A stretch of DNA of 37,351 bases from Magnetospirillum aberrantis SpK (GTDB lineage Bacteria; Pseudomonadota; Alphaproteobacteria; Rhodospirillales; Magnetospirillaceae): contig NZ_JAAIYP010000046.1 of the NCBI RefSeq assembly GCF_011022235.1, positions 1 through 37,351 on the forward strand. Direction: 5' to 3'. The position numbers and the translations under genes were made by a program. This document shows positions 23,174-27,064 of this stretch, in pieces (position 1 is the first letter of the stretch; each line of letters starts with the position of its first letter). Under the pieces are notes generated by a model. The model was not told the DNA's origin, did no database searches, and was given only the letters and a program-made list of their open reading frames with translations.

Positions 23174-23455
23174 TTACCGATGGTCGTGGTCGTGTTCGCT
23201 CAATTCTGCGGCGGCGTGATGGTGTTCGTGCGGTTTCCAGGCGTGCTTGGGGTCCTCGTGGCCGTGGTCGTGGCTTTCGCCTTGGTCGTGGCCGTGGGGA
23301 TGACGGTGCTGGTGGACGTGGTCGTGCGCGTGGGTGTGGGCGTGGGCGTGGGCGTGCACGGTGTCGCCGTGGGCATGGCTGTGGTTGTGCACGTGGGTAT
23401 GTTCGTGCGCGTGGCCATGCTTGTGTTCGTGCGAGTGGGAATGATCGTGCGGCAT
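23174..23455 (-). CDS. Small histidine-rich metal-binding protein at the end of the nickel importer operon
   Basis: A 93-residue protein with 37 histidines (about 40%), mostly as an alternating x-His pattern (HSHSHEHKHGHAHEH and similar). The other residues are chiefly Ala, Asp and Glu; there is no cysteine and no signal peptide or membrane segment. A direct role in binding Ni2+, Co2+ or Zn2+ in the cytoplasm is likely by composition, comparable to the His-rich tails of HypB or SlyD, though I see no homologous folded domain. ATG 23455 is preferred, with GAGGAG five bases upstream; GTG 23461 is an alternative overlapping the nikO stop. The tight spacing to nikO makes it part of the importer operon. 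Confidence 0.85.
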   Translation of the reverse strand: MPHDHSHSHEHKHGHAHEHTHVHNHSHAHGDTVHAHAHAHTHAHDHVHQHRHPHGHDQGESHDHGHEDPKHAWKPHEHHHAAAELSEHDHDHR

Positions 23456-23457
23456 GC

Positions 23458-24111
23458 TCACTCCTCGATGCGGCCGCCACGCAGGACGACGCGGCGGGTG
23501 GCCAGGCGTTCGACCAGATCGTCGTCGTGCGAGACGATGACCATGGCCTGGGGAAGCCCGGCCAGGATGTCGATCAGGCGCTCGCGCGCCGCGCGGTCCA
23601 GGGCGTTGGACGGCTCGTCCAGCAACAGCACCTCGGGCCGCATGGCCAGCACGGCGGCCAGGGTCACCAGCCGTTTCTCGCCGCCCGACAGCTTGTGGGT
23701 GACGCGCTCGCCGAAGCCGGGCAGCCCGACCTGTTCCAGCGCCTCGGCCACCGCGTCCTGTGCCTCGGCGCGGCCGGCGCCCAGGTTGAGCGGGCCGAAC
23801 GCCACGTCCTCGGCCACGGTGGGACAGAACAACTGATCGTCGGGGTCCTGGAACAACAGGCCGGCACGGGCGCGCACGTCGTGGAAATCGGCCTCGCGCC
23901 GACGTTCGGCACCGAACGCCAGCACGCGGCCGGCCTGGGGCCTCAGCAACCCGACCATCAGATGCAGCAAGGTCGTCTTGCCGGCGCCGTTGTCGCCCAG
24001 AACGGCCACCCGTTCCCCGGCGGACAAGGAGAACTCCAGCCCGGCCAGCACCGGCCGGGCGGGATCGTGGGCGAAGCCAAGGTCTTCAAGCCGGAACAGT
24101 TCCTGGGTCAC
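23458..24111 (-). CDS. nikO: ECF-type nickel/cobalt transporter ATPase
   Basis: The cytoplasmic ATPase (A component) that powers metal import. 217 residues, slightly short as usual for CbiO/NikO proteins with one domain. Walker A is GDNGAGKTT (39-47), the Q-loop FQDPDDQLF, the signature LSGGEKR, Walker B VLLLDEPSNALD and the switch histidine in IVSHDDD. It overlaps nikQ by four bases upstream and is followed by the His-rich gene. Homology alone cannot separate nickel from cobalt; the nikK/nikL partners favour nickel. Confidence 0.94.
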   Translation of the reverse strand: MTQELFRLEDLGFAHDPARPVLAGLEFSLSAGERVAVLGDNGAGKTTLLHLMVGLLRPQAGRVLAFGAERRREADFHDVRARAGLLFQDPDDQLFCPTVAEDVAFGPLNLGAGRAEAQDAVAEALEQVGLPGFGERVTHKLSGGEKRLVTLAAVLAMRPEVLLLDEPSNALDRAARERLIDILAGLPQAMVIVSHDDDLVERLATRRVVLRGGRIEE

Positions 24112-24875
24112 ATCATCCCCACCGCCAGAACCAGGGCCAAGGACGCCGTGTGGACGGCGCCGAAACCCCAGTCCAACCCACCGGCCCTGCCCAGGTCAAG
24201 GATCGGATAATGGCCGCGGAATCCGCGCAACCGCATGGCGGCGTGGATGCGTTCGGAACGTTCGACGCTGTTCACCAACAACATGCCCACCAGCCAGCCA
24301 TAGGCCCGCCAGGTGTGCCAGCCGGTGCGCGGGCGAAAGGCCCTGGCCCGCATGGCCAGCCGCAGCCGGCCATATTCCTGATGCAGCACCTCGACATAGC
24401 GCAAGGTGAACAGCATCAGGGTGGCCAGCCGTGCCGGCACGCCCAGCCGGGCCAGGGCGTGGCCCAAGGCGACGGTTTCCATGGACGCCAGCAACGCCTG
24501 GACGGCCAGCATGACCGCGCTGGCGATGGCGGCGACCGACAGTGCGCGTTCCATTCCCTCGGCGCTGGCGGTCAATCCCCCCAGGGTGAACAGCGTTTGC
24601 CCGGGAACGGTGAAGGGCAGGGTGACCAGCACCAGCGCCATGAACACTTCAAGCGCCAGAAGCCGGCGCAGCACCGTTCGCATCGGCAACCGCGCCAGCA
24701 GGCAAAGCCCGGCGGCCACACCCAGCGCGGCAAGCTGCGCCATGATCCCTTGCGCCGCCACCGCCACCACCGCGAACAGGGCGGCGGCCAGGACACGGGT
24801 GCGCGGGTCCAGCCGGGCGACCAGCGACCGGGCGGGACCTTGCGGGGCAAGCAGGTGGGCGGGAACCGGGGTCAC
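24108..24875 (-). CDS. nikQ: ECF-type nickel/cobalt transporter transmembrane (T) component
   Basis: The T component couples the ATPases to the metal-binding NikM. 255 residues with about five to six membrane helices and the charged coupling helices typical of CbiQ: RLRLAMRARAFRP and RIHAAMRLRGFRG, each with an Ala-x-Arg-x-Arg/Gly core that contacts the ATPase. Overlaps nikL and nikO by four bases at either end, so stoichiometric translation is expected. Confidence 0.92.
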   Translation of the reverse strand: MTPVPAHLLAPQGPARSLVARLDPRTRVLAAALFAVVAVAAQGIMAQLAALGVAAGLCLLARLPMRTVLRRLLALEVFMALVLVTLPFTVPGQTLFTLGGLTASAEGMERALSVAAIASAVMLAVQALLASMETVALGHALARLGVPARLATLMLFTLRYVEVLHQEYGRLRLAMRARAFRPRTGWHTWRAYGWLVGMLLVNSVERSERIHAAMRLRGFRGHYPILDLGRAGGLDWGFGAVHTASLALVLAVGMM

Positions 24876-25432
24876 GGCGTGCGGGGTCGCCGGGCGGCGA
24901 TCCAGGCGAAGATGCCGAAAACGCCGAAGATGGTGCCGATGCCGGCCATGATGTCGCTGAAACGGGTGCGTTCCTCCAGGGCGTCGATCTGTTGCCGAAG
25001 CGGAAGGATCTGCCGGGCCACCGCCATCTCGATGGCGTCGGTGCCGGCTGTCGCTGGCGTCGGTGCCGCCACCGGTGCCGGGGCGGACGGGGTCGAGGAG
25101 CCCTCGCCCATGGGCAACGACAGGGGCAGTTCGCTGGCGGCGACACGGGTCTCGGCCACATGGCCGTCGCCGGAATCCACCGCCACCCGGTAATCCTGGC
25201 GGCTGGCGACGTCCAGGCGGAAGCCGCCCTGGGCGTCGGTACGGAACTCGGTCAGCACCGTGCCGTCGGCGGCCAACAGCCGGCCGGTGCTGTTCTGGGC
25301 CTTGCCGCCACCGGCGAAATAGGCGGTGCCGACGATGGTGGCGCCCTCGGCGGCGGCGAACACCTTGAGCTTGTGGGCCAGGGCCGGGGACGCGGCCAAC
25401 ACCAGGGCGGCGGTCAGCAACAGGCGCTTCAT
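24872..25432 (-). CDS. nikL: NikL-like accessory membrane protein of the nickel importer
   Basis: 186 residues: signal peptide with an ALA/H cleavage site after residue 19, a periplasmic beta-rich domain (about 20-100; GGFRLDVASRQDYRVAVDSGDG resembles a carboxypeptidase-regulatory-like fold), a Pro/Ala linker (about 112-130), a short helix (QILPLRQQIDALEERT) and one C-terminal TM (about 160-178) ending in Arg. This layout and the position between nikM and nikQ match the NikL subunit of NikKMLQO-type importers, where NikK and NikL replace NikN. The predicted mature N-terminus starts with His. Name based on context and architecture. Confidence 0.75.
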   Translation of the reverse strand: MKRLLLTAALVLAASPALAHKLKVFAAAEGATIVGTAYFAGGGKAQNSTGRLLAADGTVLTEFRTDAQGGFRLDVASRQDYRVAVDSGDGHVAETRVAASELPLSLPMGEGSSTPSAPAPVAAPTPATAGTDAIEMAVARQILPLRQQIDALEERTRFSDIMAGIGTIFGVFGIFAWIAARRPRTP

Positions 25433-26034
25433 CCTTCCTCCAGCATCTCGGGTTTGACGCGGGCGACCAGCCCCAGGGCGGCGGCGGTGAACGCCGCCTC
25501 GACCACCATCACCGGGACGGCGGTCAGCACCACCAATTGCGCGACGGTCAGGAACTCGCGGCCCGACGCCACCAGCGACAAGGACAGCATCACCGTGGTC
25601 AGCGCCACCGCGCCGCCGCCGCAGGCCGCGCCTAACAGCGCGGTGCGGCGCGGCCGGTCGCGTCGCCACAGGGCCCGGAACACCAGGCCGGCCAGCACCG
25701 CCGGCACCCCCATGTTCATGGCGTTGACCCCCAGCACCACCAACCCGCCAAAGCCGAACAGCACCGCCTGAAGCAACAGGGCGACCAGGATCGCCGGAAA
25801 GGCCGCCCAGCCCAGCACCGCCCCCATGATACCGTTGAGGATCAGGTGGACCGAAGCCGGTCCCGCCGGCAGGTGGATCAGCGAGGCGACGAAGAACACC
25901 GCCGACAGCACGGCGACGCGCGGCATGCGTTCGGGGGTCAGCGCCCGCAGGCCCAGGCCCAGGAAGCCGGCGCTGGCTACGGCCCCGGCCACCAGGACCG
26001 GAACCGTCACCACCCCGTCGGGGATGTGGGCCAT
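25429..26034 (-). CDS. nikM: Nickel/cobalt-binding membrane (S) component, CbiM/NikM family
   Basis: NikM/CbiM binds the metal at its N-terminal loop and toples in the membrane during import. The 201-residue protein has about six to seven TMs, starts MAHIPDG and has the family segments HLPAGPASVHLILNGIMGA and GVNAMNMGVPA. In NikM2 the ligands are the N-terminal amine, His2 and two further His. Here an Ala precedes the His, but Met is normally removed before Ala, which would place His back at position 2; His54 and His63-type residues in the conserved loop complete the set. It follows the nikK stop without any gap and overlaps nikL by four bases. Confidence 0.92.
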   Translation of the reverse strand: MAHIPDGVVTVPVLVAGAVASAGFLGLGLRALTPERMPRVAVLSAVFFVASLIHLPAGPASVHLILNGIMGAVLGWAAFPAILVALLLQAVLFGFGGLVVLGVNAMNMGVPAVLAGLVFRALWRRDRPRRTALLGAACGGGAVALTTVMLSLSLVASGREFLTVAQLVVLTAVPVMVVEAAFTAAALGLVARVKPEMLEEG

Positions 26035-26808
26035 CTACTTCATGTCCACCGTCTTGACCCACATCAGCGCGCCCAGTTCCACCGGCGCCATCTTGCCTTG
26101 GGGGTTCTTGACCGGTTTGTCGCCGTCAACCAGCGCGGCGAAGCCCCACCAGCCGGCGCGCGGCATGACATAGCTGAAGCGGCCGGCGGCATCGGCCTTG
26201 ATCACCTGGGTAATGAAGGGATCGGACGGCGCCTTGACGCTGCCGTCGTTGCGCCATTCCACCTCGATTTCGGCGAACGGCACCGGCTTGCCGTTCTTGC
26301 GCACGATGCCGCTGAAGGCGTTGCCGGTCCACAGGCCATAGGGACGCACCAGGGGCTCGATCTCGACCGGCAGGCCGACCAGCTTGTCCCAACCCTCGCC
26401 CGAGCCGAAATCCACCACCACCTTGGCGTAGTGGATGATGCTCTTGCCCTCGGCCGGTTCCCAATAGGGGGCGGGTTCGACGTAGAATACGTAATCGGCG
26501 GGGGCATCCACCTTGTAGCTGGCGGTGTAGGCGGTCTTGCCCTCGCCCTTCTTGACGGCCTTCAACTGGCTTTTCAGGTCATGGTTCTTGCCGTCGGCCA
26601 GCACGCCGAAGCGGACCGGTGGGGCCATTTCCATCACCGGCCCCATCTCCATGGGATGGGTGAAGGTCAGTTCCAGGCCGACGGTGCGGTCACCGTCCTC
26701 GGGCACGATGTCGGCCGAGGGGATGACTTCCTGGAAATGCGCCAGGGCGGCGCCGGGAATCATCATTGCGGCGGCCAGAAGGGCGGAAAGGGGATGGGCG
26801 AAACGCAT
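26035..26808 (-). CDS. nikK: Periplasmic NikK-like protein (DUF4198)
   Basis: A 257-residue exported protein and first gene of the importer operon. Signal peptide with the ALA/H cleavage site after residue 23, mature start [12 protein letters not shown]. The rest is beta-rich: [20 protein letters not shown], a [24 protein letters not shown] core and a C-terminal Ig-like part ([18 protein letters not shown]). DUF4198 proteins next to nikM are called NikK and are thought to bind metal or a metal chelate outside the membrane. The Met/His-containing segments would suit that. The operon order K-M-L-Q-O is continuous. Confidence 0.85.
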
Positions 26809-26831: not shown

Positions 26832-26878
26832 ATCATGCGACCGGCTTGTCCAAGCCTCAGGTCAGAAAATTATGCGAC
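26832..26878 (-). promoter_or_regulatory. Direct repeat and palindrome at the nikK promoter
   Basis: The 256-base gap between nikK and pgi holds a repeated decamer ATYATGCGAC (26832-26841 and 26869-26878), starts 37 bases apart, with a 6-bp palindrome GGCTTG-TC-CAAGCC (26843-26856) between. Read on the minus strand the distal copy covers CATAAT (26874-26869), a good -10, with a TTGCCG -35 at 26899-26894 (19-base spacer, a little long). A repressor site for metal control is plausible. It does not match the E. coli NikR site well, and I see no cobalamin riboswitch. Confidence 0.4.
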
Positions 26879-27064
26879 TGCGTTGTGTGATGGCGGCAAC
26901 CATACCGCCGCCCGAGGGGGCTGCCAATGGTAAAACCGTTCACGGATCGCGGCGGCGATGACAGCGTGGTGAATGCATGCCGCTAGGCCCCGAGGGGGGA
27001 TGGCCGGTTTCTTGGGCTGGTGCTAGAGTCCTGGGGCTGAAATGCCAAGAGGGGGAGAACGGTC

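Follow-up and report, generated by a model that had tools for sequence, protein, structure and literature searches.

The small histidine-rich open reading frame that directly follows nikO in Magnetospirillum aberrantis SpK is a real, conserved coding gene. It was analyzed within a stretch of 37,351 nucleotides (the window), and its sequence and surroundings make it reasonably probable that the product is a free nickel buffer or carrier in the cytoplasm, acting at the inner side of the NikKMLQO importer and serving as an alternative to NikR-type control. The features that go beyond the preliminary description of this gene are (i) a His-rich tail on NikO in other bacteria, (ii) exclusion between the gene and NikR, (iii) copies of the gene beside nicO and hupE, and (iv) a leader element, GTCGCATAAT, upstream of nickel transporters.

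The His-rich gene and the nik operon

The subunit order K, M, L, Q, O is complete in the window, on the minus strand, and identifies a NikKMLQO-type ECF importer operon, putatively for nickel: nikK (26035..26808; Pfam DUF4198, PF10670), nikM for the substrate-specific subunit (25429..26034; PF01891), nikL (24872..25432; NF058648), nikQ for the transmembrane coupling subunit (24108..24875; TIGR02454), and nikO for a 217-residue ECF ATPase without a His-rich C-terminal tail (23458..24111). NikM, NikQ, and NikL pass the curated NCBIfam cut-offs; NikO matches the NCBIfam CbiO model at 2e-56, under its curated cut-off, and passes Pfam ABC_tran. The sigma70-like candidate promoter TTGGCA-17-TATGGT 5′ of nikK (26899..26927, minus strand) is a consensus match only, with one found versus 0.5 expected in shuffles. 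At the gathering threshold, Rfam gave no match anywhere in the window. On nickel rather than cobalt as the putative substrate, the sequence offers the NikL and DUF4198 subunits, this negative Rfam result, and a separate CbiMNQO-like operon (recognized by eye) in the same genome. The genome also has a [NiFe] hydrogenase and a HypB with a His tail of its own.

The His-rich gene occupies 23174..23455 on the minus strand, from an ATG at 23455 to a TAA stop at 23176-23174, and encodes 93 residues, 37 of which are His (39.8%) and none Cys. The ATG lies 2 nt beyond the nikO stop (23460-23458), and a ribosome-binding site, GAGGAG, read by eye, is located within the end of nikO (23461..23466, minus strand). 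The length, the His count, the lack of Cys, and the ribosome-binding site close to the nikO stop, as given in the preliminary description, are confirmed. By comparison, His accounts for 2.07% of residues across 28 other called window genes, a subset of those called, with 6.2% in the next highest gene. In the protein, x-His runs span residues 2-29 and 33-56, and a conserved HAWKPHEH lies near the C-terminus; there is no hydrophobic segment, the highest Kyte-Doolittle mean over 15 residues being -0.73. A GTG at 23461 is a possible alternative start that would add two residues. Relatives favor the ATG: with starts taken as the nearest suitable Met, which gave proteins of 89-107 residues, 28 of the 29 sequences begin with Met-His, and the window protein begins with Met-Pro. 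The relatives are 61-72% identical to the window protein, and about 40 columns, including the C-terminal WKPH motif, are invariant across all 29 proteins.

Low-complexity sequence invites the explanation that a stretch rich in CAC/CAT mimics a gene and is untranslated or antisense, the more so as a Val/Met-rich frame is open on the plus strand at 23174-23455 and a simple codon-usage gene caller chose this antisense frame in many relatives. The pattern of change contradicts this explanation, which is extremely improbable. Among the 29 sequences, pairwise differences at codon positions 1, 2, and 3 of the His frame number 5541, 6836, and 15622, and of the one-step changes, 9150 are silent and 4270 altering when read in the His frame, versus 1183 and 12237, respectively, in the antisense frame. 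Because change is dominated by the third position and is mostly silent in the His frame, the coding strand is settled as the minus strand, and the codon-position test rules out antisense coding at 23174-23455. The aligned start codons and the ribosome-binding-site-like stretches that precede the start in many of the 29 relatives (by eye) likewise argue against an artefact.

No Pfam or NCBIfam family matched the protein at E 0.001; with E up to 10, Pfam still gave no match and NCBIfam returned an unrelated serine-rich model alone (E 0.14). When a profile built from the 29 members was run against PDB sequences, the only two chains returned were unrelated (E 0.34 and 0.43). AlphaFold2 predicts a two-stranded hairpin over residues 10-51 with its turn at a conserved His-Gly-Asp (mean pLDDT 69.7, rising to about 92 midway; pTM 0.30), and modeling seven distant relatives separately returned the same hairpin (mean pLDDT 68.7, pTM 0.32). 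The two models come from non-overlapping sequence sets, and the hairpin is to be viewed with caution, given pTM values of 0.30-0.32 and the tendency of alternating sequences to invite predicted hairpins. In the models, every second strand residue, a His, would face one side of the hairpin, an arrangement that is suggestive only.

Gene neighborhoods and the exclusion of NikR

Full-length relatives occur in 29 of 55 Magnetospirillaceae genomes, including the window genome; the family search yielded 30 matches, of which that in G035 was dropped as a HypB tail. The gene lies directly behind nikO in 12 of the 29. In 10 others, all of genus g16 (named loci matching this genus carry titles that include Phaeospirillum, Magnetospirillum MAGs, and Paramagnetospirillum), one opposite-strand gene parts it from nikO, and in four further g16 members the opposite-strand gene adjoins the His-rich gene and the nik operon is located elsewhere. 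In G030, the gene stands directly behind nicO; in G013 it also follows nicO, but an opposite-strand gene occupies the interval; and in G010, a genome that also has a diverged nikK-nikM, it is divergent from hupE. Overall, 25 of the 29 family members show a nickel-permease neighborhood and, on account of the nikO, nicO, and hupE neighborhoods, the gene accompanies three unrelated families of nickel permease. The earlier characterization as the last gene of an operon therefore applies to 12 of the 29 (13 with the nicO of G030) and does not extend to the 14 g16 members, in which the gene forms a separate unit. A conserved protein of ~360-400 residues adjoins it in all 14 gene-bearing g16 genomes (e.g., L012 7603-8694, minus strand); Pfam offers nothing for this opposite-strand neighbor at E 0.001, and the matches at E up to 10 are weak.

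NikR (PF08753) is present in 19 of the 55 family genomes, comprising none of the 29 that bear the His-rich gene and 19 of the 26 others; seven genomes have neither. The exclusion gives a Fisher p of 2.3e-9 with kinship ignored. Within genus g1, the His-rich protein is found in 11 genomes and NikR in two, with no overlap, and within g16 the corresponding numbers are 14 and two, with one genome having neither. Each of the 30 genomes with a NikM near that of the window (E up to 1e-30) carries exactly one of the two, the His-rich protein in 26 and NikR in four. In the NikM tree, the four NikR-type NikMs (two each from g1 and g16) form one clade with support 99/99, so the exclusion may represent one or two historical events. 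Since each of the 30 genomes carries exactly one of the two proteins and the NikR-type NikMs form one clade, the simplest reading is that the cassettes are two alternatives that have moved, at least in part, between genera, as opposed to four separate replacements.

The preliminary description had treated loss of the gene from close relatives that retain the importer as evidence against its proposal. Two of the 13 genomes of the genus, G002 and G009, do keep nikKMLQO without the gene; both have NikR instead, and their NikMs fall in a different clade. In G002 and G035, nikR is located shortly behind nikO on the opposite strand, at the site taken by the His-rich gene in others. The NikR of G035 (L230 5336-5830) has a His-rich C-terminal tail. 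The NikQ proteins of three NikR-type cassettes (L119 5591-6403, L120 7295-8113, and L230 3834-4649) bear an N-terminal extension that contains Cys and His, which is not evident in the fourth, that of G034 (L231).

Urease alpha is over the cut-off in 15 of the 55 family genomes and not in the window genome, and a link of the gene to urease was rejected on these counts. Hydrogenase passes in 54 of 55, and its presence is therefore uninformative as a link to the gene.

Clear relatives of the protein also occur in eight genomes of other families of the order, after weak matches in G031, G094, and G125 were dropped. In the seven relatives that were aligned, the x-His runs are retained and the sequence ends in KPHDHxH, without the Trp. 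In none of the eight loci (4.8-11 kb) was a nickel-uptake gene recognized among neighbors judged by eye, so the protein is not confined to nickel operons. In one of them, L184, the relative adjoins molybdenum-related-looking genes. Outside the family, NikR is found in two of the eight genomes with relatives versus 63 of 254 without, which is no different and rules out NikR exclusion as an order-wide rule. A class-wide search of 385 genomes with an 18-row alignment matched the window genome alone. Because the outside loci lack recognized nickel genes and NikR is not excluded there, nickel may not be the sole or original ligand.

These outside contexts fit a protein that confers tolerance by soaking up divalent metals in general (Zn, Co, Cu) and was recruited to nickel operons only in this family, as does the binding of Cu, Co, and Zn besides Ni reported for the Hpn-like protein (PMC8704837). 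Such a role sits poorly with three types of nickel permease as the family neighbors, and it appears quite improbable.

A leader element upstream of nickel transporters

The nickel transporters of gene-bearing relatives have in common the leader element GTCGCATAAT, which is exact in the window at 26869..26878 (minus strand) and is joined there by a second, degenerate copy, GTCGCATGAT, at 26832..26841 (minus strand). One or two copies lie some tens of nucleotides 5′ of nikK (within ~60 nt where the start is readable). Among the 25 gene-bearing genomes for which the sequence ahead of nik is available, 24 have the element there, and the four NikR-type genomes all lack it at this position. Of those 24 upstream regions, 23 have it exactly, and G040 has it twice with one mismatch. 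The comparison of nikK upstream regions (24 gene-bearing genomes) was made without G006, for which upstream sequence is missing, and G010, the diverged nikK of which was viewed separately. The nikK-nikM of G010 and a second nikM of G005 have no leader element. GTCGCATAAT is also found 5′ of hupE in G010 and of nicO in G013 and G030. The four NikR-type operons instead share GTATGAA-N11-TCGTATTAC 5′ of nikK, which resembles a NikR operator.

Across seven whole genomes, GTCGCATAAT occurs exactly 21 times versus 5 for the reversed control. Ten of the 21 matches precede nickel or probable metal uptake genes, namely, nikK (five, in four genomes), nicO (two), hupE (one), a Peripla_BP_2/FecCD importer (one), and a TonB receptor (one) that is followed by a DUF4198-like-looking gene; in the other 11, a clear nickel link is absent. 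Positions 5′ of nickel or probable metal uptake genes in NikR-free genomes include L112 6262, L117 4366, L246 1501, and L236 1501. The Peripla_BP_2/FecCD importer with GTCGCATAAT upstream belongs to the window genome (L255 5324-7253 and 7722-12453) and is divergent from radical-SAM-like and CobN-like genes, both recognized by eye. The motif tally comprises 40 sites, of which at least three lie inside nikK and are to be discounted. In one clade, a near-copy, GTCGCATAAA, is found inside nikK (L061 1018, L063 1018, L065 2565, and L067 1018), with GTCGCATAAG in L064; it may reflect merely a conserved peptide. No leader element precedes the His-rich gene itself in g16, even with one mismatch allowed.

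An alignment of 19 selected leaders yielded no consensus RNA structure, and a folded RNA was rejected on this basis. The leader element is thus more likely a site in DNA or in unstructured RNA, and in NikR-free genomes it would be read by a putative factor.

NikO tails, known nickel proteins, and a proposed function

The place of the His-rich protein in the operon is taken elsewhere by a tail on the importer ATPase. Among 46 named loci found with NikL, NikO is complete in 41 and absent or weak in five, and 31 of the 41 complete NikOs (L017, L019, L020, L022, L024-L026, L028-L043, L045, L047-L052, and L054) end in a His-rich C-terminal tail; L036, L038, L039, and L041 among them are from Ancylobacter. 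The tail comprises 18-48 extra residues past the end of the window NikO, with 7-13 His, and its x-His alternation begins where the window NikO ends. Five of the 10 tail-less NikOs (L009, L010, L012, L014, and L016) match Magnetospirillaceae genomes, L016 being the gene-bearing locus of Magnetospirillum sulfuroxidans J10; the remaining five are L015, L018, L021, L044, and L046. None of 26 Magnetospirillaceae NikOs examined has a His tail (that of the window and 25 others, the latter including three from the same genomes as named loci; 22 gene-bearing, four NikR-type). The NikO of G038 has a 17-residue extension from which His is absent.

Because the tail is found elsewhere and the free protein in this family, the free protein occupies the place of the NikO tail and probably does its job. 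The two share the same x-His alternation and the same place in the operon. They differ in that the tail is covalent and short, whereas the window protein is free, 93 residues long with 37 His, and separated from NikO by a stop codon 2 nt before its own ATG. By its sequence, the protein looks like a NikO tail set free; sequences of this kind do not allow homology between them to be demonstrated. No statement of a free protein in place of the NikO tail was found in the literature covered, which took in few subscription journals.

His-rich tails of HypB, UreE, and SlyD are cytoplasmic nickel-binding stretches beside nickel-enzyme assembly. They are tails of folded proteins, whereas the window protein is a free 93-residue frame with its own start and stop. 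Substitution for the HypB tail was considered and rejected: the tail is no shorter where the free protein occurs, with a median of 24 His in gene-bearing genomes versus 23 (p 0.86; 31 loci from 49 genomes over the cut-off, 27 of them parsed as 14 gene-bearing, 10 with NikR, and three with neither). CooJ has a His-rich tail and comes from a host presumably of the same bacterial class as the window organism; its structure is expected among PDB sequences, where the His-rich protein profile gave no CooJ match. CooJ of Rhodospirillum rubrum binds nickel and is co-regulated with CO dehydrogenase, according to a title in the references of PMC8704837. In Mycoplasma genitalium, the His-rich lipoprotein Hrl shares its regulation with a CbiMNQO-like ECF system and is linked to nickel (PMC6968530). 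The window protein differs from Hrl, which is a lipoprotein encoded at a separate locus and regulated by Fur.

Hpn and Hpn-2 of gastric Helicobacter are small, free, very His-rich nickel-binding proteins, confined within that genus to gastric species; of the two, Hpn acts in nickel sequestration, and each interacts with HypAB (PMC4671568). NikR activates the Hpn-like protein (PMC8704837). The window protein is likewise free and small, with more than 30% His. The window protein is distinguished from Hpn by its regular x-His alternation, conserved HAWKPHEH end, importer-linked gene, and NikR-free genomes. Helicobacter is presumably of another phylum-level lineage than the window organism. For the proposed buffer, Hpn is the closest known working model.

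A nickel buffer is consistent with these comparisons and remains the preferred role. The x-His runs probably line up their imidazoles on one face of the predicted β hairpin, where Ni(II) leaving NikM/NikQ would be caught. The protein would thereby keep free nickel low and pass the metal on to the hydrogenase maturation proteins HypA/HypB, or store it. It would be the free-standing counterpart of the NikO His tail of most other NikKMLQO systems examined and part of the nickel cassette in family genomes without NikR. The idea of a cytoplasmic metal buffer tied to the importer, raised in the preliminary description, gains from the conservation of the gene, its position, the copies beside nicO and hupE, and the analogy to the NikO tail; the metal binding in it remains putative.

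The same alternation of NikO tail and free protein, together with exclusion with NikR inside the family, would also suit a post-translational governor, in which the nickel-loaded protein, like a detached NikO tail, binds the transporter and throttles or licenses uptake, the job of NikR elsewhere. A precedent is found in Helicobacter pylori, where the Niu nickel transporter needs SlyD, which contacts NiuD, in order to be active (PMC7840056), but SlyD activates there and does not act as a brake. For the His-rich protein, contact with NikO or NikQ is hypothetical, NicO and HupE permeases are accompanied by it as well, and the gene is separate in 14 g16 members, all of which render this governor role unlikely. 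A broader scheme of NikR-free control can be put forward tentatively: a freed NikO tail, folded as a His-faced hairpin, might buffer or throttle NikKMLQO, NicO, and HupE, and GTCGCATAAT might coordinate these and probably other uptake genes (the TonB receptor with its DUF4198-like gene and the FecCD-type importer) via a putative nickel-responsive factor.

A low-complexity frame without a Pfam or NCBIfam match can still carry a strong evolutionary signal. Fewer than half of the organisms that have NikABCDE were found to have NikR as well, from which regulation independent of NikR has been inferred (PMC2667541). Against this background of many nickel users without NikR, a small conserved protein marks the NikR-free nickel cassettes within one family, and it corresponds to the tail that other bacteria keep on the importer ATPase. 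Two questions thereby become approachable in Magnetospirillaceae: whether a metal buffer may replace a repressor, and what might read the leader element GTCGCATAAT.
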